64,000 nt of DNA, from NCBI RefSeq assembly GCF_014642075.1, contig NZ_BMIK01000002.1, forward strand, positions 372,001 through 436,000, written 5' to 3'. A program made the translations under genes and the position numbers. Shown here one piece after another: positions 33,813 through 43,937 of this stretch (its first letter is position 1; every line of letters begins with the position of its first letter). The DNA is from Parapedobacter defluvii. Its GTDB lineage: Bacteria; Bacteroidota; Bacteroidia; Sphingobacteriales; Sphingobacteriaceae. The notes beneath the pieces were generated by a model that did no database searches, had not been told where the DNA came from, and saw nothing but the letters and a program-made list of their open reading frames with translations.

Positions 33813-36101
33813 ATGAGGCGATCATTGATTTTATTGTTTACGATAGTTTTGCAGTCGGCGCAGGCGCAGGACGTAACCCACGTAGAACACCCATTGGATT
33901 ATGTAAATATACTCATGGGCACACAGTCGGTACATTTATTGTCTAATGGAAATACCTATCCGGCCATAGCACGTCCGTGGGGCATGAATTTCTGGTCGCC
34001 CCAAACCGGAAAAATGGGCGATGGATGGATGTATATGTACACAGCCGATAAGATCCGTGGATTCAAGCAGACCCATCAGCCTTCTCCATGGATGAACGAT
34101 TATGGGCAGTTTTCAATCATGCCCATTACGGGAAAGCGTACATTTGACGAGAACGAACGCGCAAGTTGGTTTTCGCATAAGGCCGAAGTAGCGCAACCGA
34201 ACTATTACCGCGTTTACCTGGCGGATCATGACGTGACAACGGAGCTTACCCCCACGGAGCGGGCTGCGCGGTTCCGTTTTACCTTTCCGGATACCGATAG
34301 TGCTTATGTGGTCATTGATGCATTTGATAAAGGGTCGTATGTAAAGGTCATTCCCGGCGAAAATAAAATCATCGGATACACCACCCGTAACAGCGGGGGG
34401 GTACCAGACAATTTTAAGAATTATTTTGTGATGGTATTTGATCAACCCTTTGCCAACGTGGGAACGTTCGCTGATTCTGTGCTGGTCGATGACCGGATGG
34501 AAATACAGGCCAATCATGTGGGAGCTATTGTAGGTTTCCATATCGGTAACAGGGGTGAGCAAGTGCAGGCCAAGGTAGCTTCTTCATTCATCAGTTTCGA
34601 GCAGGCCGAGTTAAACCTGAATGAAATCGGCAACCGCGATTTCGAAACTATCAAGCAGGAGGGAGCCGACCGTTGGAATGCCGAACTCGGAAAAGTTAAG
34701 GTGGAAGGCGGCAGCATTGATCAGGTACGGACTTTTTACTCCTGCCTGTACCGGACAATCTTGTTTCCGCGGATGTTCTATGAATACGACGCCAATGGCA
34801 ATGTGGTGCATTACAGTCCGTACAATGGACAGGTACTTCCCGGCTATATGTTTACCGATACGGGTTTCTGGGACACCTTCCGGGCATTGTTTCCTTTCCT
34901 GAACCTGGTTTATCCTGAGATGAACCAACAGATGCAGGAAGGACTCGTGAATGCCTATAAAGAAGGGGGATGGTTGCCCGAATGGGCCAGCCCGGGATAC
35001 CGCAACATCATGGTGGGCAATAATTCGGCTTCAGTGGTTGCGGATGCATATATCAAAGGGTTGCGGGGCTACGACATTGAGAAGCTGTATGAAGCACTGT
35101 TGAAAGGCGCAAACAATCCGGGGCCGATCACAGCTGTAGGCAGGGCTGGTGCGGAATATTACACAACACTTGGTTATGTGCCCTATGACGTTAAAATAAA
35201 CGAAAATGCAGCCCGTACGCTAGAATATGCATACGATGATTTCGCCATTTATCAATTGGCAAAAGCATTGGGCCGGCCTGCAGATGAAATTGCGCTGTAT
35301 CGGGAACGTAGCTTCAACTACAAGAAACTATTTGACAAGGAAACAGGCTTGATGCGCGGAAAAAATAAAGATGGTAATTTCCAAAGCCCCTTTAATCCGT
35401 TTAAATGGGGAGACGCCTTCACCGAAGGAAATAGCTGGCATTATTCCTGGTCTGTATTTCAGGATGTGGAAGGATTGGCGCAGTTGATGGGCGGACACGA
35501 CGCTTTTGTGCAGAAGCTTGATTCCGTGTTTTTCCTGCCTCCGGTGTTCGACCACAGCTATTATGGGTTTACCATTCATGAAATCCGTGAAATGCAGATT
35601 GCCAACATGGGACAGTATGCCCATGGCAATCAGCCTATCCAACATATGATTTACCTGTACAATTACGTGGGTGCGCCCTGGAAAGCGCAGTATTGGATAC
35701 GGGAAACCATGGAACGTATGTATCTACCCACACCCGATGGATATTGCGGCGATGAGGATAACGGCCAGACTTCGGCCTGGTATGTCTTCTCTGCGTTAGG
35801 TTTCTACCCTGTGACGCCGGCTACCGATGAATATGTGGTAGGGGCGCCGCTATTTAAGAAAGTAACGGTTCAGTTGGGGGAAGGTAAGACCATCGAGATA
35901 CAGGCACCTAACAACAGCAAGGAGAACCGGTATATTCAATCCGCAACATTTAACGGCAGTACCTATAACAAAAACTACATCAAGCATGATGACCTGGTAA
36001 AGGGAGCTGTTATACATTTCGATATGACGGATACACCCAATACAAGCCGGGGCACAAAAACAGAAGATTTTCCATTTTCGCTGAGCCTGGAGGAGAATTG
36101 A
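33813..36101 (+). CDS. glycoside hydrolase family 92 (exo-alpha-mannosidase family)
   Basis: A 762-residue secreted GH92 enzyme: signal peptide to AQAQ, N-terminal beta-sandwich (LLSNGNTYPAIARPWGMNFW) and a C-terminal (alpha/alpha)6 domain. GH92 enzymes are calcium-dependent inverting exo-mannosidases. The two catalytic-base Asp residues are seen as Asp647 and Asp649 (CGDEDNGQTSAWY). At the general-acid position, where many members read GNEP, this protein reads GNQP with Gln607, which may indicate a substrate with a good leaving group (see findings). It faces the fucose operon regulator; the stops are 17 bases apart. Confidence 0.94.
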   Translation: MRRSLILLFTIVLQSAQAQDVTHVEHPLDYVNILMGTQSVHLLSNGNTYPAIARPWGMNFWSPQTGKMGDGWMYMYTADKIRGFKQTHQPSPWMNDYGQFSIMPITGKRTFDENERASWFSHKAEVAQPNYYRVYLADHDVTTELTPTERAARFRFTFPDTDSAYVVIDAFDKGSYVKVIPGENKIIGYTTRNSGGVPDNFKNYFVMVFDQPFANVGTFADSVLVDDRMEIQANHVGAIVGFHIGNRGEQVQAKVASSFISFEQAELNLNEIGNRDFETIKQEGADRWNAELGKVKVEGGSIDQVRTFYSCLYRTILFPRMFYEYDANGNVVHYSPYNGQVLPGYMFTDTGFWDTFRALFPFLNLVYPEMNQQMQEGLVNAYKEGGWLPEWASPGYRNIMVGNNSASVVADAYIKGLRGYDIEKLYEALLKGANNPGPITAVGRAGAEYYTTLGYVPYDVKINENAARTLEYAYDDFAIYQLAKALGRPADEIALYRERSFNYKKLFDKETGLMRGKNKDGNFQSPFNPFKWGDAFTEGNSWHYSWSVFQDVEGLAQLMGGHDAFVQKLDSVFFLPPVFDHSYYGFTIHEIREMQIANMGQYAHGNQPIQHMIYLYNYVGAPWKAQYWIRETMERMYLPTPDGYCGDEDNGQTSAWYVFSALGFYPVTPATDEYVVGAPLFKKVTVQLGEGKTIEIQAPNNSKENRYIQSATFNGSTYNKNYIKHDDLVKGAVIHFDMTDTPNTSRGTKTEDFPFSLSLEEN

Positions 36102-36118: not shown

Positions 36119-37027
36119 TCATTTCAGGTAAGCCCGTTGATAATTTAACGGGCTTTTGCCTGTTATCTGCTTGAAGTATTTATGGAATCCAGCAAAATTG
36201 TGAAACCCGCTTTCATAACAAACCTGTTTAACATTCATGTTGTTTTCGATAAGTAATTTGCAGGCATGCCCTACGCGTATTTCGATGAGAAACTGCGAGA
36301 ATGTTTTGCCCGTGCGCGACTTGAAATAGCGGCAAAAGGCGTTACTGCTCATACCTGCAATCTCTGCCACCTCATCCAACGCAATCCGCTGCCTGAAATG
36401 TTGCAGGGCAAAATCATAAATATTATTGATCCGGTCTTTTTCGCCGTGCTGGAAATGCGGGTTGAAACCGACAGATGACAGCAATTGGATCTCCTTTGTC
36501 TGTGCGATGGCCGTAAGTGCTTCAATCAACAGTATGATCCGCTTGGTGCCTTCGGTCGTAATTAACTCTTCCAACAGTTTACGTACCTGAATACGGGCTG
36601 CGCCCTGCACGGATATCCCCTGCTTGGCTTGTTGAAGCAGCTGTTTGATGTGCGTATTTTCTGGCAGGTTTAGAAAATCCATGCCCCAGAAATCCTCGTT
36701 GAAATGTGCTACACGAACATCCGCATCCGTTTGATTACTGGAATTAAAGTAAGCGCTGTCAAAGCTCCAGTAATGAGGTAAATTGGAGCCAATAAGCACC
36801 ACATCACCGGATGAAAAATTGCATATGCTGTCCCCGATGAATTGAGTGCCATTCCCTTTTTCAAAATGGATGAGTTCAATTTCCCGGTGATAATGCCAAC
36901 GGTTGTTCGCATAAGGTATGGTATCCCGCCGTGCGCTGAACGAATGAGCGGGACTGGTGCTTACTTTTAGTAGTTGCGGTTTCATCAGCTTCGTTACGTA
37001 TGTGTTCAATGCCTGATGAATCTCCAT
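36119..37027 (-). CDS. AraC-family regulator, probable regulator of the fucose operon
   Basis: A 302-residue regulator with an N-terminal cupin-like sensor (RWHYHREIELIHFEKGNGTQ and SSGDVVLIGSNLPHYW) and a C-terminal AraC double helix-turn-helix (about 200-300: LDEVAEIAGMSSNAFCRYF, VKQVCYESGFHNFAGFHKYF, ending GKSPLNYQRAYL). It is divergent from the fucose operon, 189 bases between the two starts, which suggests it senses L-fucose or an intermediate and activates that operon; this role is inferred from position only. Confidence 0.92.
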   Translation of the reverse strand: MEIHQALNTYVTKLMKPQLLKVSTSPAHSFSARRDTIPYANNRWHYHREIELIHFEKGNGTQFIGDSICNFSSGDVVLIGSNLPHYWSFDSAYFNSSNQTDADVRVAHFNEDFWGMDFLNLPENTHIKQLLQQAKQGISVQGAARIQVRKLLEELITTEGTKRIILLIEALTAIAQTKEIQLLSSVGFNPHFQHGEKDRINNIYDFALQHFRQRIALDEVAEIAGMSSNAFCRYFKSRTGKTFSQFLIEIRVGHACKLLIENNMNVKQVCYESGFHNFAGFHKYFKQITGKSPLNYQRAYLK

Positions 37028-37216
37028 GCTCTTCGCATTTTGTATTGCATACGGACATAGCAGCGTTCCATTCAGTCAAAAGAACATAATATTTAGCAAT
37101 TCTACCAAAAATACGTTAATATAGTTGAATACATCGCTAGTATGTGCGCAGCTTTTATGTGGGTTGTTTGCTTACTTTGCTTGATTTATATACTAACCGA
37201 TATCGAAAAACTAGCA

Positions 37217-38476
37217 ATGGCGAAACAGCAATCGATGATTCCGGTGATTTTGGTCACCTCTTTATTTTTCCTTTGGGGATTTGCTCACAACTTGAACCCC
37301 ATACTGATTCCACACCTGAAGAAGGCCTGCCAATTGTCGGACTTTCAGTCCGCGTTTATTGATTCGGCTTTTTTTATTGCGTACTTTGTCATCGCCCTGC
37401 CCGCGGGTTATTTCATGAAACGATTTGGCTACAAACAAGGGATCGTTTTCGGGCTACTGCTGTTTGCCGTCGGCGCCTTTTTGTTTTTTCCTGCCGCCAG
37501 TACCCGTGAATATGGTTTTTTCCTTGGCGCCTTGTTTGTCATTGCCAGCGGATTAACGTTTTTGGAAACTGCGGCTAATCCGTATATCAGCGTATTAGGC
37601 AGTCCGGAAACTGCCGCCCAGCGGCTCAACCTGGCACAATCTTTCAACGGGCTGGCGGCAACATTAGCCCCCTTCATTGGCGGGCATTATATATTGTCCG
37701 GCAAAACGTTGACCGCGGCCGAGCAGACGGCTATGCCTACGGCCGACTTGACTGCCTATCTGCAATCAGAAGCGGATGCAGTTAAATTGCCTTATATCGT
37801 GATCGGTGTAATCGTATTGCTGATTGCTTGGGTGGTCCGTCGCACTTCACTACCTGAAATCAACGAAGAAACGCTGTCGCATGACGACCGGTCAATGGGA
37901 AAATCACTTTGGTCTAATGGAAATTTTGTATTCGGGGTGATTGCGTTATTTTTGTATGTAGGAGCACAGGTGGGAGTAGTTAGTTTTTTTATCCGTTTTT
38001 CAGAACAAGTTGCCGGGGTGCAGGAAAAAGCAGCTGCGAACCTGCTTTCCGTCGCACTGTTAGGCTTTATGCTGGGGCGCTTCGTGGGAACATTCCTCAT
38101 GCGTTTTATTACACCCGCCAGGTTGCTGGCTATCTTCGCATTGCTCAGTGTTGCCTTTACCCTGCTATCGGCCGGAGTGAATGGCATGTTTGCGGTCTAC
38201 GCCATGGTGGGGGTTACGTTTCTGATGTCTATCATGTTTCCGACTATTTTTTCACTTGCAATCAGCGGATTGGGTAAAAATACAAAACAGGGATCATCCA
38301 TTTTGATTATGTCCATCGTGGGAGGGGCCATCGTCCCATTGGCCATGGGGCGGTTGTCCGATTGGTTCGGCATGCAAAGTGCATACGTTGTGCCGGCGGC
38401 GTGCTTTTCGGTTGTACTGTTATTTGCATTACGAAATGTAAATAATAAAGTTATTCAGGTTGCTGCGGCACATTAA
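37217..38476 (+). CDS. fucP: L-fucose:proton symporter, FucP family
   Basis: A 419-residue major facilitator transporter with about 12 membrane helices, in the FHS/FucP branch: LFFLWGFAHNLNPILIPHLKK, SAFFIAYFVIALPAGYFMKR and FLETAANPYISVLG are family signatures. It imports L-fucose with protons and is the first gene of the fucose operon. The frame extends to 37142; the ATG at 37217 gives the standard N-terminus. The mutarotase gene follows after 54 bases. FucP relatives can carry other sugars, but all neighbours fit fucose. Confidence 0.95.
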   Translation: MAKQQSMIPVILVTSLFFLWGFAHNLNPILIPHLKKACQLSDFQSAFIDSAFFIAYFVIALPAGYFMKRFGYKQGIVFGLLLFAVGAFLFFPAASTREYGFFLGALFVIASGLTFLETAANPYISVLGSPETAAQRLNLAQSFNGLAATLAPFIGGHYILSGKTLTAAEQTAMPTADLTAYLQSEADAVKLPYIVIGVIVLLIAWVVRRTSLPEINEETLSHDDRSMGKSLWSNGNFVFGVIALFLYVGAQVGVVSFFIRFSEQVAGVQEKAAANLLSVALLGFMLGRFVGTFLMRFITPARLLAIFALLSVAFTLLSAGVNGMFAVYAMVGVTFLMSIMFPTIFSLAISGLGKNTKQGSSILIMSIVGGAIVPLAMGRLSDWFGMQSAYVVPAACFSVVLLFALRNVNNKVIQVAAAH

Positions 38477-38530
38477 ACAGGGAGATTCGCAGATTTGAAA
38501 AAAAATACAAACTTAGTTAAAAATAAGCAG

Positions 38531-38884
38531 ATGAAACGATATGCATTAGCGCTCGACTTGCAAGACGATGAGCAGCTGATCGCTGAATATGAGCGATTGC
38601 ACCGAAATGTGGCACCTGAAATCCAGCAGTCCATCAAAGACTCGGGCATAACCCGAATGGACATCTACCGATTTGCCGACCGGATGTTTATGATGATCGA
38701 GGCCGATGATGACTTTTCGTTTGTCGAAAAAGCCGCAGCGGATGCCAAGAATCCTTTGGTGCAAGCGTGGGAAGAGCTTACCTGGAAATATCAAAAAGCG
38801 ATACCCGGATCCAAACCGGAAGAAAAGTGGGTGGTCATGAATAAGATTTTTGAACTTAGTAGCACCGGACGCAACGATGGATAG
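38531..38884 (+). CDS. L-rhamnose/L-fucose mutarotase family protein
   Basis: A 117-residue RhaM-family (DUF718) mutarotase, which interconverts sugar anomers. Family marks are the YALALDLQDD start, YERLHRNVAPEIQQSIKDSG, ITRMDIYRFADRMFMMIEAD and the NPLVQAWEELTWKYQ block. Its place between fucP and the dehydratase indicates L-fucose as substrate, making the anomer that the dehydrogenase uses. It overlaps the next gene by 8 bases (ATGGATAG). A TTG at 38495 is in frame; the ATG at 38531 is preferred. Confidence 0.93.
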   Translation: MKRYALALDLQDDEQLIAEYERLHRNVAPEIQQSIKDSGITRMDIYRFADRMFMMIEADDDFSFVEKAAADAKNPLVQAWEELTWKYQKAIPGSKPEEKWVVMNKIFELSSTGRNDG

Positions 38885-40535
38885 ACAGCTATTTTTACGG
38901 ATACATCCCAATGATAACGTGCTAGTTGCTTTGCAAGACCTTGCGCCGGGCACGGAAATCTCGTTTGAGGACAAGCGTTTTTTGGTGGTAAGTGGGGTAA
39001 AAGCAAAGCATAAGTTTACATTGGAACCGTTGGATGAGGGCGACGAAATACGGATGTATGGAGTATTGGTGGGGAAGACCCGTATGCCCCTGCCGCAGGG
39101 GGAAACCATTACTACACAGAATATTTACCATGCCGCAAATCCATTTACGTTGGGTGAACGTAAACTTGATTGGAAGCAGCCGGATGTGTCAGCATTCACG
39201 AATAGGACCTTCCTCGGATATCACAGAACGAACGGAACGGTCGGTACAGCCAACTATTGGTTGGTTATCCCGTTGGTGTTTTGTGAAAACCGCAATGTGC
39301 TGGTAATGAAACGTGCGTTGGAAGAGAAGTTGGGCTACCGAAAACGGTCGCGGGACTACGAACCTGAAGTGGACCGGCTGATTAGTTTATATCAAGAGGG
39401 GGCAACGATAGCGGATATTTTGTCTGCAGATATTGAAATTGACCGCGAGCAGGAGGAGGGAAGTCGGCTGTTTGAAAGCGTAGACGGTGTCAATTTTCTA
39501 AACCATGAAATGGGTTGTGGCGGTACGCGGATCGATTCGGATGCACTTTGCGGACTGTTGGCCGGATACATTACCCATCCAAACGTCGCAGGAGCTACGG
39601 TACTCAGCCTCGGATGCCAACATGCGCAGGCTTCCATACTGCGTGCGGAAATTGAGAAGCGCGATCCGAATTTCGACCGGCCATTGTATATTTTTGAGCA
39701 ACAACTGATGGGGACGGAAACTAACCTGCTTCAGCAGGCGCTGAAACATACCTTTGCCGGCCTGATGAAAGCCAACGAGCAGCGGCGTGCGCCTGCACCG
39801 TTGGACAAACTGTGTATAGGTTTGGAATGCGGAGGTTCAGATGGATTCTCCGGTATTTCGGCCAATCCGGCACTGGGTTACGTTTCGGATATGCTGGTAG
39901 CGATGGGTGGCTCGGTCATCTTGTCCGAGTTTCCCGAACTATGCGGTGTAGAGCAGGAGTTGAGCGATCGCTGTGTAGATGAGTCTAAAGCACTGCGATT
40001 CATGGAGCTTATGAAAAGCTACAATGCAAAAGCGGAAGCGGATGGATCTGGTTTTTATGCCAATCCTTCTCCAGGCAACATACGCGACGGGTTGATTACC
40101 GATGCCATCAAATCAGCAGGAGCTGCAAAAAAAGGGGGTACGTCACCGGTGGTTGATGTAGTGGATTATCCCGGGGTAGCTAATACACCGGGACTGAACT
40201 TGCTGTGTACACCGGGCAATGATGTGGAAAGTACCACAGCAGAAGTGGCTGCAGGAGCTAATGTGGTATTGTTTACCACGGGATTGGGTACGCCTACAGG
40301 GAATCCCATTGCGCCGGTCATCAAGCTGGCTACCAATACAAAACTGTTTGAGCGGATGCCGGATATCATTGATATCAATTGCGGTACAATCATCGAAGGA
40401 ACAGAAACCATCGAGCAAAATGCACATCGGATATTGGAATTTGTCATCCAGGTGGCCAGCGGAATTACGCAACCCAAAGCGGTGCGGTTAGGACAGGATG
40501 ATTTTATTCCCTGGAGAAGGGGTGTGTCTTTGTGA
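38877..40535 (+). CDS. altronate dehydratase family (UxaA), likely L-fuconate dehydratase
   Basis: A 552-residue full-length UxaA-type dehydratase: an N-terminal SAF domain (LRIHPNDNVLVALQDL) and a large C-terminal domain with NHEMGCGGTRIDSDA, IGLECGGSDGFSGISANPA and TTGLGTPTGNPIAPVIKL. The family is iron-dependent. Here the operon context (fucP, dehydrogenase, lactonase, KDF dehydrogenase, FAH hydrolase) points to L-fuconate as substrate rather than altronate, giving 2-keto-3-deoxy-L-fuconate. No enolase-type fuconate dehydratase is in the operon, so this gene is the only candidate for that step. It overlaps the mutarotase stop. Confidence 0.92.
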   Translation: MDRQLFLRIHPNDNVLVALQDLAPGTEISFEDKRFLVVSGVKAKHKFTLEPLDEGDEIRMYGVLVGKTRMPLPQGETITTQNIYHAANPFTLGERKLDWKQPDVSAFTNRTFLGYHRTNGTVGTANYWLVIPLVFCENRNVLVMKRALEEKLGYRKRSRDYEPEVDRLISLYQEGATIADILSADIEIDREQEEGSRLFESVDGVNFLNHEMGCGGTRIDSDALCGLLAGYITHPNVAGATVLSLGCQHAQASILRAEIEKRDPNFDRPLYIFEQQLMGTETNLLQQALKHTFAGLMKANEQRRAPAPLDKLCIGLECGGSDGFSGISANPALGYVSDMLVAMGGSVILSEFPELCGVEQELSDRCVDESKALRFMELMKSYNAKAEADGSGFYANPSPGNIRDGLITDAIKSAGAAKKGGTSPVVDVVDYPGVANTPGLNLLCTPGNDVESTTAEVAAGANVVLFTTGLGTPTGNPIAPVIKLATNTKLFERMPDIIDINCGTIIEGTETIEQNAHRILEFVIQVASGITQPKAVRLGQDDFIPWRRGVSL

Positions 40536-40580
40536 GATGTGAGATATGAGATATGAGATGTGAGATTTGAGATGTGGGAT
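40531..40580. repeat. TGAGAT short-unit tandem repeat, single arm
   Basis: About six 8-base units of the type TGAGATNT, starting within the stop codon of the UxaA-family gene. It is a one-armed copy of the element at 62581-62655 and lies inside the fucose operon. Confidence 0.65.
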
Positions 40581-40660
40581 TATTTTTTGTTTCTTTACGG
40601 GCGTCAACGCCGCCCTGGGCGGCTGGGAGGTATCCGATTAGATTTAGCAAATTTTAACTG

Positions 40661-41431
40661 ATGTCAAATAAGAGATTAACTGGAAAAACAGCCGTCATTA
40701 CGGGGGGTGGAAGCGGAATAGGTCGGGCAATCAGCCTGTTATTCGCAAAAGAGGGCGCTTTTGTACACATCCTTGAATTGAATACAGAAGGTGCCGATTC
40801 GTTGGTTGACGAAATCAGGGCGTCCGGAGGCCAAGCGAGGGCACATAGCTGCGATGTAAGCAAACAGCAATCGGTATTGGATATAGTGGATGGTATTGGC
40901 ACCATTCACATTTTAGTGAACAATGCGGGCATAGCGCACGTAGGGGATGTCGAGCATACCAGCGAGGCGGATTTCGACCGTATTTACACGGTCAATGTAA
41001 AGGGTGCGTACAACCTATTATATGCGGTCGTACCCCGGATGAAACAACAAGGAGGTGGGGCCATTCTGAATATGGCGTCGATCGCTGCGTTGGTTGGAAT
41101 CACAGACCGGTTTGCCTATTCGACAAGCAAAGGGGCCATTTATGCAATGACATTATCCATAGCACGTGATTACCTGCACCACGGTATCCGGTGCAACAGC
41201 ATTTCGCCTGCTCGTGTGCATACACCTTTTGTGGATGGTTTCATCGCCAAGAACTATCCGGGTCAAGAGGCGGAAATGTTTGAAAAACTAGCTAAGACCC
41301 AGCCCATCGGCCGTATGGCAAAACCCGAAGAGATCGCTTCGATGGCACTTTTCCTTTGCTCGGACGAGGCTGGATTTATTACCGGAAACGATTATCCCGT
41401 AGACGGTGGATTTGTTAAGTTGAATAATTAA
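40661..41431 (+). CDS. SDR dehydrogenase, probable 2-keto-3-deoxy-L-fuconate dehydrogenase
   Basis: A 256-residue classical short-chain dehydrogenase: cofactor loop GGGSGIG (15-21), NNAG (87-90), catalytic Ser140, Tyr153 and Lys157 (YSTSK). The full catalytic set is present. Neighbours and the closing PVDGGFVKL suggest the second oxidation of the fucose route, 2-keto-3-deoxy-L-fuconate to 2,4-diketo-3-deoxy-L-fuconate with NAD. The exact step is inferred from the operon. It is 5 bases upstream of the FAH-family gene and follows a gap holding the TGAGAT repeat. Confidence 0.9.
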   Translation: MSNKRLTGKTAVITGGGSGIGRAISLLFAKEGAFVHILELNTEGADSLVDEIRASGGQARAHSCDVSKQQSVLDIVDGIGTIHILVNNAGIAHVGDVEHTSEADFDRIYTVNVKGAYNLLYAVVPRMKQQGGGAILNMASIAALVGITDRFAYSTSKGAIYAMTLSIARDYLHHGIRCNSISPARVHTPFVDGFIAKNYPGQEAEMFEKLAKTQPIGRMAKPEEIASMALFLCSDEAGFITGNDYPVDGGFVKLNN

Positions 41432-41436
41432 AAAAT

Positions 41437-42291
41437 ATGAAATTAATCCGATATGGCGATCCCGGCCGTGAAGCAATAGGGGTACAGATTGATGGTGTGA
41501 ATTATGACGTCTCTGCCTTTGGAGGTGATTATAATGAGGAATTTTTTGAGAATGAAGGGTTAGCAAGGCTGGAGGAATTTGTAAAAGCGAATGAAGGTGA
41601 TTTTGTCGTTGTTCCCGAAGGCACGAGGTTGGGAAGCCCCATTGCGCGTCCTTCAAAAATCCTCTGCATCGGGCTTAATTACCGGGATCATGCGGCGGAA
41701 ACCGGAGCGACGATTCCCAGTGAGCCGATTCTTTTTATGAAATCAACCACCTCACTTAGCGGCCCGTTTGATGACATCATAATCCCCAAAAATTCCGCAA
41801 AAACGGACTGGGAAGTGGAGTTTGGTGTGGTCATAAGCAAAACAGCCCGTTATGTAAATGCCTCAGATGCGTTTAACTATGTGGCTGGATATGTTTTACA
41901 TAACGACGTGTCTGAACGGGAATTTCAATTGGAACGGGGTGGTACCTGGGATAAAGGAAAGGGATGTGACACGTTTGCACCAATGGGCCCCTTTATGGCT
42001 ACCAAAGACGAAATTGCCGATATAAACAATGTGCGGCTATGGCTCACCGTAAATGGCAAGACCTATCAAGATGGAACCACGCGGGATCTGATTTTCGACG
42101 TACCATTCATCATCAGTTATGTCAGCCAGTTTATGACGCTGCTACCCGGTGATGTTATTTCCACCGGAACGCCTGCTGGTGTCGGACTGGGATTCAATCC
42201 GCCTATATACCTCAAACCGGGCGACGTAGTCGAACTGGGAGCCGATGGATTAGGCACTTCACGTCAGGTGGTAAAAGCATATCAGGGCTAA
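41437..42291 (+). CDS. fumarylacetoacetate hydrolase family, probable 2,4-diketo-3-deoxy-L-fuconate hydrolase
   Basis: A 284-residue FAH-superfamily enzyme: CIGLNYRDHAAETGA, the metal-binding DWEVEFGVVI and GDVISTGTPAGVG blocks are diagnostic. In this operon it should cleave 2,4-diketo-3-deoxy-L-fuconate to pyruvate and L-lactate, the last step of the oxidative fucose route. It belongs to the same broad group as ureidoglycolate lyase and FAHD1-type proteins; the assigned substrate rests on context. Confidence 0.92.
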   Translation: MKLIRYGDPGREAIGVQIDGVNYDVSAFGGDYNEEFFENEGLARLEEFVKANEGDFVVVPEGTRLGSPIARPSKILCIGLNYRDHAAETGATIPSEPILFMKSTTSLSGPFDDIIIPKNSAKTDWEVEFGVVISKTARYVNASDAFNYVAGYVLHNDVSEREFQLERGGTWDKGKGCDTFAPMGPFMATKDEIADINNVRLWLTVNGKTYQDGTTRDLIFDVPFIISYVSQFMTLLPGDVISTGTPAGVGLGFNPPIYLKPGDVVELGADGLGTSRQVVKAYQG

Positions 42292-42308
42292 AAGGCATAC
42301 AGGGAGGT

Positions 42309-43148
42309 ATGGAGCGAATCGATGCACATCAGCACTTTTGGAAATACCACCCGAAGCGGGATGCATGGATAACCGATGATATGGCGGTTATCCAACGGGA
42401 TTTTCTGCCGTATGATCTGAAACCGGTTTTGGAGGCTAATGGTGTATCCGGATGCATAGCGGTACAAGCAGACCAATCGGAAGAGGAAACCCTGTTTTTG
42501 CTGAACTTGGCTGAGCAAGCCCCCTTTATCAGGGGTGTGGTGGGATGGGTGGATCTGCAGGCGGCCGATGTTGACGGACGGTTGGCTTATTTTCGCCGGT
42601 ATCCCAAACTAAAAGGATTCCGACACATTGTTCAAGGTGAGCAAGATCCCGATTTCTTGCTTCGTCCGGTGTTTCTCAATGGCGTAGAGGCGTTGGGAAA
42701 ACGGGGATATACCTATGACCTGTTGGTGAAGCCGCATCAACTGGATGCTGCACTTGAATTTGTCCGCTCTTTACCCAATCAACCCTTGGTAATCGACCAT
42801 TTGGCTAAACCTTATATCCAAGCCGGAATACGCGAACCATGGGCTACACAGATGGCAGCCATTGCGGAATACGAACACGTGTATTGCAAATTGTCCGGTA
42901 TGGTTACCGAAGCCGACTGGAAACGATGGAAGCCAGTGGATTTCCTGTTCTATATACAACATATACTTCAGGTATTTGGTCCCCGGCGGGTTATGTTCGG
43001 GTCTGATTGGCCGGTATGTTTAGTTGCAGCAGACTATGCACGGGTAGTCGAATTGGTAGCGGAGGCAATCGACAGTTTTACGGATAGCGAACAACAGATG
43101 GTATGGCATCAATCTGCAACCGATTTTTATGGATTACTAAGTATATAA
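42309..43148 (+). CDS. amidohydrolase (COG3618), probable L-fuconolactonase
   Basis: A 279-residue TIM-barrel amidohydrolase of the 2-pyrone-dicarboxylate-lactonase-like group: the HxH motif DAHQHFW (His7, His9), VIDHLAKP, KLSGMVTEADW and FGSDWPVC with the catalytic Asp. In the fucose operon it should open L-fucono-lactone to L-fuconate. It sits 17 bases after the FAH-family gene and 6 bases before the next SDR gene. Confidence 0.93.
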   Translation: MERIDAHQHFWKYHPKRDAWITDDMAVIQRDFLPYDLKPVLEANGVSGCIAVQADQSEEETLFLLNLAEQAPFIRGVVGWVDLQAADVDGRLAYFRRYPKLKGFRHIVQGEQDPDFLLRPVFLNGVEALGKRGYTYDLLVKPHQLDAALEFVRSLPNQPLVIDHLAKPYIQAGIREPWATQMAAIAEYEHVYCKLSGMVTEADWKRWKPVDFLFYIQHILQVFGPRRVMFGSDWPVCLVAADYARVVELVAEAIDSFTDSEQQMVWHQSATDFYGLLSI

Positions 43149-43154
43149 GCTAAT

Positions 43155-43937
43155 ATGGATCTGAAGTTGAACGGCAAAGTTGTAATGGTCACGGGCGGGG
43201 CCAAAGGGATTGGCAAGGGGATTGTGTTGGCATTGGCGGCGGAAGGAGCTATTCCCGTAATTGTGGGGCGGAGACAATCTGACAATCGACTGGTGCAGGA
43301 AGAAGTTGAATCAGGAGGCGGGAGGGCATACTGTGTCGAAGCTGAATTGACCCGCGCGGAAGAATGTGAACGGGCTGTCAGGGAAACCTTGGCCGAGTTT
43401 GGACGCGTGGATGGCTTAGTAAACAACGCGGGGGTAAACGACGGAGTGGGGCTGGAGAATGGGAATTACCAGAAATTTGTAGACAGCCTTCATAAATCGC
43501 TTATCCATTACTATCTGATGGCACATCATGCACTCCCGGCATTGAAGAAGAGCAGGGGGAGTATCGTGAATATTGGTTCTAAAACCGGGGAAACCGGGCA
43601 GGGAAATACATCGGCTTATGCTGCTGCCAATGGTGGGCGTAATGCGTTGACACGTGAGTGGGCGGTAGAATTATTGAAATATGGTATCCGGGTAAATGCA
43701 GTGATTGTAGCAGAATGTTACACTCCACTGTACGATACCTGGATTAAAACTTTGTCCAATCCAGCCGAAATCCTTGAAAAAATTACGCGGCGTATTCCGT
43801 TGGGCAACCGGATGACCACCGCAGAAGAAATAGCAGATATGGTGACATTTTTGCTGTCTGAACGGTCGAGCCATACGACAGGTCAATTAATCCATGTGGA
43901 TGGAGGATACGTACATTTGGATCGTGCAATTGATTGA
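43155..43937 (+). CDS. SDR dehydrogenase, probable L-fucose dehydrogenase, Lys-to-Asn at YxxxK
   Basis: A 260-residue short-chain dehydrogenase with the cofactor loop GGAKGIG (14-20), NNAG, and the segments GNTSAYAAANGGRNALTREW and RVNAVIVAECYTPLYDTW, which match the L-fucose dehydrogenase branch. Tyr155 is present, but the usual catalytic Lys four residues later is Asn159. I recall the same YAAAN pattern in other Bacteroidota homologues, so it may define a subgroup rather than a dead enzyme. In the pathway it would oxidise L-fucose to the lactone. Last gene of the operon; it converges on accA with a 15-base gap. Confidence 0.87.
   Translation: MDLKLNGKVVMVTGGAKGIGKGIVLALAAEGAIPVIVGRRQSDNRLVQEEVESGGGRAYCVEAELTRAEECERAVRETLAEFGRVDGLVNNAGVNDGVGLENGNYQKFVDSLHKSLIHYYLMAHHALPALKKSRGSIVNIGSKTGETGQGNTSAYAAANGGRNALTREWAVELLKYGIRVNAVIVAECYTPLYDTWIKTLSNPAEILEKITRRIPLGNRMTTAEEIADMVTFLLSERSSHTTGQLIHVDGGYVHLDRAID

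Follow-up and report, generated by a model that had tools for sequence, protein, structure and literature searches.

The window considered here is a 64,000-nucleotide stretch of the Parapedobacter defluvii genome (contig NZ_BMIK01000002.1, positions 372,001 to 436,000), and its 37217–43937 region contains seven genes on the forward strand, faced by a divergent gene for an AraC-family regulator. Judging from the sequences of their products, these seven genes very probably form a single operon for the non-phosphorylating 'route III' of L-fucose catabolism, in which a UxaA-family dehydratase acts at the L-fuconate step. The set is ordinary as an operon. Two features of its enzymes are specific and testable: residue 249 of the dehydratase, a candidate determinant of substrate specificity, and an L-fucose dehydrogenase in which a YxxxN active-site motif is paired with Arg162. 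The seven genes and the AraC gene were all found where the original prediction had placed them.

The predicted L-fucose pathway

In the proposed pathway, L-fucose would be imported by FucP (37217–38476), which exceeds the cut-off of the L-fucose:H+ symporter model TIGR00885 (367 bits; cut-off 280.4); a second fucP model, NF007524, gives 327 bits, below its cut-off of 427. A RhaM/YiiL-type protein (38531–38884; most likely start ATG 38531), taken as the L-fucose mutarotase, would supply the reactive anomer. It matches Pfam rhaM with 96.9 bits (cut-off 23.4), the NCBIfam L-rhamnose mutarotase model gives 27.2 bits, far below its cut-off of 99.6, and no solved relative was found by sequence at E ≤ 0.001. 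The short-chain dehydrogenase/reductase (SDR) encoded by the 3'-terminal gene (43155–43937) would convert L-fucose to L-fuconolactone; it scores 413 bits with the L-fucose dehydrogenase model NF052481 (cut-off 300), and its nearest structures are 4GKB, a Burkholderia multivorans SDR (54% in the fold search), and then Campylobacter jejuni Cj0485 (6DRR; 48%). The lactone would be converted to L-fuconate by a COG3618-type protein (42309–43148), for which the top model is L-fucono-1,5-lactonase NF052480 (291 bits, under the cut-off of 400) and which matches 4DLF (E = 1.9e-54), presumably the lactonase that Hobbs (2013) described from B. multivorans.

The UxaA/GarD-family protein (38877–40535), taken as an iron-dependent L-fuconate dehydratase, would remove water from L-fuconate to produce L-2-keto-3-deoxyfuconate (KDF). 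Each of the three UxaA/GarD-family (COG2721) domains exceeds its Pfam cut-off (GD_AH_C with 316 bits, GD_AH_second and SAF), and the protein matches the galactarate dehydratase GarD (6U7L; E = 1.4e-64); its sole NCBIfam match is likewise galactarate dehydratase (258 bits, under the cut-off of 731). E. coli UxaA is 34% identical and keeps the four family cysteines. In the window protein these are Cys136, Cys214, Cys247 and Cys318, which are invariant in a ten-row alignment including E. coli UxaA and are equated, by their order, with Cys134, 173, 208 and 276 described for the family. The predicted structure has a mean predicted local distance difference test score (pLDDT) of 84.9. The protein contains SAF and GD_AH domains only, and none of the MR_MLE domains of the enolase-superfamily enzymes of the Xanthomonas type.

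KDF would then be oxidized at C4 by the first SDR (40661–41431). This protein aligns to the L-KDF dehydrogenase of Herbaspirillum huttiense (8XWK) and, with similar scores, to other SDRs, and has Arg150, Arg185, Phe194 and Thr213 at the sites where 8XWK has Arg, Thr, Arg and Arg. The Arg-Arg-Phe-Thr pattern is that of the 'type 4' L-KDF 4-dehydrogenase, which has been found in and assayed from Sphingobacterium mizutaii (kcat/Km 2730 per min per mM; PMC11199699). Finally, an FAH-family protein (41437–42291) would cleave the diketo acid, 2,4-diketo-3-deoxyfuconate, into pyruvate and L-lactate; its top model is 2,4-didehydro-3-deoxy-L-rhamnonate hydrolase NF053535 (340 bits, under the cut-off of 500), and its best solved relative is the L-2,4-diketo-3-deoxyrhamnonate hydrolase 8GSR (E = 7.6e-75). 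No DapA-type aldolase, as in the Campylobacter-type route, is found among the seven operon genes, which encode a KDF dehydrogenase and an FAH protein instead. Because the step-by-step family matches, the nearest structures and the Arg-Arg-Phe-Thr pattern combine, a route III pathway ending in pyruvate and L-lactate is the best reading of the operon.

The same enzymes might mainly serve D-arabinose or L-galactose, which have the same C2–C4 configuration, with L-fucose as a side substrate. D-arabinonate is the best substrate of a UxaA-family relative, C. jejuni fuc mutants are described as failing to grow on D-arabinose too, and look-alike clusters of marine flavobacteria that contain uxaB fit an L-galactose route. 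However, the FucP and fucose-dehydrogenase matches are over their cut-offs, the window operon has no uxaB, the 4-dehydrogenase is of the type assayed on L-KDF, and the genome contains three GH29 alpha-L-fucosidase genes, all of which make such a main substrate quite unlikely.

It is even less probable that the operon UxaA is still a D-altronate dehydratase and that the true L-fuconate dehydratase, for example an enolase-superfamily enzyme, is encoded elsewhere. The UxaA family name would suit this idea, the genome contains six MR_MLE_C matches over the cut-off and one under it, and three fucose clusters of Algoriphagus have no dehydratase gene. By contrast, uxaA lies inside the operon, overlaps the mutarotase gene and adjoins the mutarotase gene in many relatives. 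In addition, a second UxaA in the same genome, 57% identical, is located between relatives of uxaB and uxaC, and therefore altronate probably has its own enzyme. When five of the seven enolase-type proteins were scanned, two were over the cut-off for galactonate dehydratase and none was named fuconate dehydratase, a model that NCBIfam may not hold.

Two points nevertheless weigh against the L-fuconate dehydration predicted for this UxaA clade. The Algoriphagus clusters just mentioned are one. The other is that the UxaA-family enzyme of H. huttiense prefers D-arabinonate, and that its activity on L-fuconate is described as low-level with a product apparently not that of dehydration (PMC6336799).

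The phosphorylating fucI route was also considered. One Fucose_iso_C match in the genome exceeds the Pfam cut-off (38.7 bits) and another falls short of it; neither protein has an NCBIfam match at E ≤ 1e-20, and hence neither is counted as fucI. A divergent isomerase may be present.

Conservation and relation to known systems

In Parapedobacter composti and P. soli, the gene order is identical to that of the window, including the flanking GH92 and accA genes, and the UxaA proteins share 83% and 82% identity, respectively, with that of the window. This recurrence indicates that the seven-gene set is not a product of chance. UxaA relatives are present in 122 of 151 Sphingobacteriaceae genomes, many of which have two or more, and in 76 of 395 genomes of the phylum at E ≤ 1e-100. 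When the neighborhoods of the 30 top loci (the window included) were examined over 1.5 kb on each side, a mutarotase gene was found beside the dehydratase gene in all 30, and most had fucP or the 4-dehydrogenase gene. Among the best 80 of at least 585 relatives, the full or nearly full set occurs in Parapedobacter, Sphingobacterium, Daejeonella, Mucilaginibacter, Pedobacter, Flavobacterium, Algibacter, Aestuariibaculum and a Candidatus Acidoferrales bacterium, whereas many of the 80 are uxaB/uxaC loci instead. Three loci fetched later (L229, L239 and L240, family code f2) also have the gene set; f2 is probably Chitinophagaceae, since locus L212 (genome G303) and L073, a Chitinophagaceae record, encode identical UxaA proteins. 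A divergent AraC neighbor accompanies many, but not all, of the related operons. As the set recurs across these lineages, this 'mixed' operon is a common form in Bacteroidota. Relatives of the dehydratase at about 33% identity are found on proteobacterial plasmids; of the 311 plasmid records with a match, three were opened, and none of these has the gene in such a fucose operon, whereas in one of them uxaC adjoins it.

The operon resembles the route III system of Xanthomonas campestris in its dehydrogenase, lactonase, dehydratase, 4-dehydrogenase and hydrolase, and in the predicted products pyruvate and L-lactate. It differs from that system in that the dehydratase belongs to the UxaA/GarD family and not to the enolase superfamily, the 4-dehydrogenase is of type 4, and the fucose dehydrogenase has the YxxxN motif. 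The L-fucose cluster of S. mizutaii (SMI01S_RS12625; Watanabe, 2024, PMC11199699), to which the type 4 4-dehydrogenase of that species was assigned by gene context, shares the type 4 arginine pattern, the comparison being made by the 4-dehydrogenase alone. UxaA-family proteins have been placed in L-fucose, D-arabinose and L-galactose pathways. Compared by its description, the UxaA-family enzyme of H. huttiense (Watanabe, 2019, Sci Rep, PMC6336799) is alike in family, in four conserved cysteines and in sugar-acid dehydration, and differs in its preference for D-arabinonate. The C. jejuni fuc locus (cj0480c–cj0489) likewise contains UxaA-family genes, proposed to act on L-fuconate, and encodes a related fucose dehydrogenase, Cj0485, whereas it differs in having a DapA-type gene, an IclR-type regulator and a dehydratase split over two genes. 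The contrast originally drawn between Xanthomonas (enolase-type dehydratase) and Campylobacter (UxaA-family and DapA-type genes) agrees with the published accounts.

The literature already contains the elements of this combination. In C. jejuni, UxaA-family genes have been proposed for the conversion of L-fuconate to KDF (PMC12566272); L-KDF has been produced from L-fuconate by a bacterial 'D-arabinonate' dehydratase, not further specified (PMC11199699); and UxaA-family proteins are linked to L-fucose pathways by Watanabe et al. (2019, Mol Microbiol) in their title. Since UxaA-family proteins have thus been proposed or named for L-fucose, and L-KDF has been made from L-fuconate, the combination of UxaA with route III is of a known kind. 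No assay of a UxaA-type fuconate dehydratase from Bacteroidota was found in the literature searched, which covered few subscription papers. As to the route and the UxaA protein at the fuconate step, the original prediction is well supported by the family matches, the operon order, the conservation, the altronate-type paralog in the genome and the residues by which the first SDR resembles L-KDF dehydrogenases. The suggestion of an unusual hybrid is not supported, as UxaA beside the KDF dehydrogenase and FAH proteins is common in Sphingobacteriaceae and also known from other groups, and the UxaA family had already been tied to L-fucose. For many Bacteroidota, the operon suggests which gene is likely to encode the fuconate dehydratase.

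Several other clusters touch on this distribution. A plasmid of Hymenobacter tibetensis (locus L295, 5959–13632) carries a fucose operon with genes for UxaA, SDR, FAH, SDR and FucP, the UxaA having Lys249. In Candidatus Sphingobacterium stercorigallinarum (L065, around 12100), a fucI homolog (61% to E. coli) is located near an oxidative fucose operon; both fucose routes may therefore coexist there. Marine flavobacteria, Zobellia and others (L088, 9001–15600; L105, L112, L118, L126 and L134), have uxaA–uxaB clusters with relatives of the lactonase and/or fucose dehydrogenase and fucP. The contents of these clusters fit an L-galactose route through D-altronate. Their UxaA proteins have Asn249, whereas that of a galactose-like locus fetched later (L228) has His249.

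Multiple origins of the fucose-operon dehydratase

On a tree built from 100 UxaA proteins, the fucose context requires at least five changes. In a tree of 48 proteins, the group including the window protein (F1) is one clade (support 100/99), next to a uxaB/uxaC-linked clade, whereas F2, a second group with members from Pedobacter sp. B4-66, Flavobacterium and others, is placed within a different set of uxaB/uxaC-linked enzymes, including the second UxaA of the window genome. Approximately unbiased (AU) tests, for which the groups were defined once the first tree (100 proteins) had been inspected, reject joint clades of F1 and F2 (p = 3.7e-7), of F1 and a further group, F3 (p = 4.7e-4), and of all fucose-context UxaA proteins (p = 1e-46). 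The tree analyses thus provide new evidence that the UxaA enzymes of fucose operons are not one clade.

The neighboring genes have a different history. In a tree of the 4-dehydrogenase and hydrolase, two F2-bearing operons (L124 of Pedobacter sp. B4-66, and L054 of the same family) join the F1-bearing operon of Pedobacter cryoconitis (L063) with support of 100/97, and a single clade of F1-bearing operons is rejected (p = 0.012). Given this discordance between the UxaA tree and the neighbor-gene tree, UxaA appears to have been exchanged in Pedobacter within an otherwise inherited operon, the neighboring genes having stayed, which is also new here. F2 may already have been a fuconate enzyme before this exchange. 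These results bear on how a conserved operon can swap its dehydratase and retain its remaining pathway genes. The dehydratase would be a relative of altronate dehydratase, an enzyme of uronic-acid breakdown, that was retargeted to L-fuconate, a direction of change that we infer, and retargeting or exchange would have occurred at least twice, in most cases accompanied by His instead of Asn as residue 249.

Position 249 as a candidate fuconate/altronate switch

Residue 249 of the window dehydratase is His (codon 39621–39623) and is located two positions after Cys247, a proposed iron ligand. L-fuconate and D-altronate have a common C2–C4 configuration and differ at C5 and by the absence of O6 in L-fuconate. 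As the difference is limited to C5 and O6, a His249/Asn249 switch between the two substrates is chemically plausible. Column 249 was the best of 552 alignment columns by a lineage-weighted score (0.90 versus 0.79 for the next), for which the fucose lineages were drawn by hand. Residue 217 (Thr/Ile) had looked convergent in the ten-row alignment, yet it is absent from the best-scoring columns and was set aside.

For the counts, a fucose context was assigned when a 4-dehydrogenase gene at 50% identity or more lay on the same strand within 4 kb; the earlier labelling of the discovery set was looser. In the discovery set of 100 proteins, which includes the window protein and E. coli UxaA but not those of L091 and L125 (too short), fucose-context proteins have 31 His and one Asn, those beside uxaB/uxaC or galactose-like genes have one His and 43 Asn, and 24 have no diagnostic context. 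A further 80 loci were fetched after column 249 had been chosen, comprising 60 of the 75 listed outside the family (the lowest 15 left out) and 20 within it; removal of six near-duplicates left 74, and L040 was also left out of the counts. In this later set, the fucose context has six His and no Asn, the uxaB/uxaC context three His and 38 Asn, the galactose-like context one His and three Asn, and the undiagnosed context four His, 18 Asn and one Lys. Overall, His and Asn number 36 and one in the fucose context, and five and 84 beside uxaB/uxaC or galactose-like genes (Fisher p = 1.2e-5 in the later set and 6e-25 overall, relatives being treated as independent); rows without a diagnostic neighbor in both sets have 34 Asn, 11 His and two Lys. 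Residue 249 is therefore put forward, for the first time here, as a candidate switch between fuconate and altronate that can be tested, and this one residue could help annotation to separate the two kinds of dehydratase.

Several observations weigh against such a switch. Locus L132 has Asn249 in a fucose operon, and the Hymenobacter tibetensis plasmid operon (L295) has Lys; conversely, His249 is found beside uxaB/uxaC or galactose-like genes at L123, L226, L228, L237 and L287. On the tree, residue 249 changes 16 times and the context six times, so the residue is more labile than the context. Independent contrasts are few, four supported and six in all, with agreement in 3.7 of four on average (sign test 0.125), and one of 200 random pairings had an opposite pair.

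These observations also favor the alternative that the His/Asn pattern reflects shared ancestry or hitch-hiking with no role in specificity, to which we give somewhat less than an even chance. The sequences are related with few independent contrasts, residue 249 changes more often than the context, and the column was chosen after all 552 had been viewed, several others scoring high as well. On the other hand, the fucose-context groups are strongly supported as separate on the tree and yet are nearly all His, the His/Asn pattern persisted in the loci fetched after the column was chosen, and position 249 lies two residues from the proposed iron-ligand cysteine.

The genus Algoriphagus contributes to both questions. 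Three of its fucose clusters (L161, L163 and L164) have relatives of every step except the dehydratase; no UxaA, RhmD-type or IlvD-type match was found in these three stretches, and a hidden dehydratase was rejected after nine neighboring frames had been scanned, none of which is a dehydratase. In Algoriphagus marincola HL-49 (L123), relatives of the KDF dehydrogenase, FAH protein, lactonase, fucose dehydrogenase, FucP and RhaM are encoded in one run, as in the window operon, but the cluster differs in having no dehydratase gene; the single UxaA gene of the genome adjoins uxaB and its product has His249. An earlier analysis called FucD missing in this strain and its fucose dehydrogenase non-orthologous (PMC5507952), whereas a 54% relative of the latter was found here. 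In two further Algoriphagus loci with such fucose clusters (L107 and L128), UxaA has Asn249, which also weighs against the proposed switch. In Algoriphagus ratkowskyi (L162, 8313–8957), a fragmentary UxaA-like frame is located directly before a 4-dehydrogenase gene.

An L-fucose dehydrogenase with YxxxN and Arg162

The fucose dehydrogenase encoded by the 3'-terminal gene has the motif Y155-A-A-A-N159 and departs from the classical SDR motif YxxxK: the codon at 43629–43631 specifies Asn159 at the site of the catalytic lysine, and that at 43638–43640 specifies Arg162. Among 89 distinct homologs sharing at least 45% identity (after removal of ten identical copies, and without the window protein), Arg162 is present in all 52 that have Asn159 and in none of the 37 that have Lys159. 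The Asn159 type is one clade (98/93), and thus looks like one event that has been kept since. In the predicted structure, residues 153–176 form one helix, which would place Arg162 one turn from position 159.

In complex SDRs with YxxxN, the lysine has moved to the position of the helix asparagine on another helix. A Lys/Asn swap of this kind is rejected here, as position 115 is never Lys among the 52 Asn159 homologs (Asn in 44, Ser in eight, Lys in none). A YxxxN class is documented among the complex SDRs (PMC3144213), whereas no report of a fucose dehydrogenase combining YxxxN with Arg162 was found in the literature searched, and the pairing is new here.

The loss of the catalytic lysine, together with Ser115 in the window protein at the usual position of Asn, weighs against a functional fucose dehydrogenase and could mean that the YxxxN enzyme is dead or repurposed, another enzyme making the lactone. 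This is unlikely: the protein passes the cut-off for L-fucose dehydrogenase, is 54% identical to 4GKB in the fold search and is the only close copy in the genome (the next is 35%), and Asn159 is accompanied by Arg162 in every one of the 52 homologs.

A broader scheme, proposed tentatively and with rather more doubt than confidence, would combine these features. In Bacteroidota and Acidobacteria, altronate dehydratases would have become L-fuconate dehydratases several times, largely through Asn249His, and would be mutually replaceable in the fucose operon; in the SDR, the positive charge used in catalysis would have moved from Lys159 to Arg162, giving a new form of the active site. Such a scheme bears on how a sugar-acid dehydratase changes its substrate and on how an SDR could function in the absence of its lysine.

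Regulatory region, gene spacing and flanking genes

The AraC-family regulator is encoded on the reverse strand (36119–37027), divergently from the operon, and contains the Pfam domains HTH_18 and AraC_binding. The gap between this gene and fucP includes, on the forward strand, a direct repeat at 37115–37143 with arms at 37115–37122 and 37136–37143, a half-site resembling G-N-T-A-A-T-A-T and a spacing of 21 bp. By eye, a repeat with this spacing is present in the AraC–fucP gaps of six of seven relatives, including P. composti, P. soli and Sphingobacterium athyrii, and is less clear in Flavobacterium rivuli. Genome-wide, the pattern has one exact match and two more at three mismatches, and a reversed control has none. 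The repeat is a predicted AraC operator, through which the AraC protein would probably activate the operon.

From fucP to the last SDR gene, the intergenic gaps are 54, −8 (an overlap), 125, 5, 17 and 6 bases. The genes had been described as tightly packed, which is true of most gaps but not of the 125 bases between uxaA and the 4-dehydrogenase gene. The uxaA gene most likely starts at ATG 38877, within the final bases of the mutarotase gene, which extends to 38884. The operon is flanked by a GH92 glycosidase gene and accA. The GH92 gene (33813–36101) adjoins the operon and is also kept there in the two other Parapedobacter species; its connection to fucosylated glycans would be a guess. The 125-base gap after uxaA (40536–40660), which is the longest in the operon, contains a degenerate GAGATATGAGAT-type repeat.

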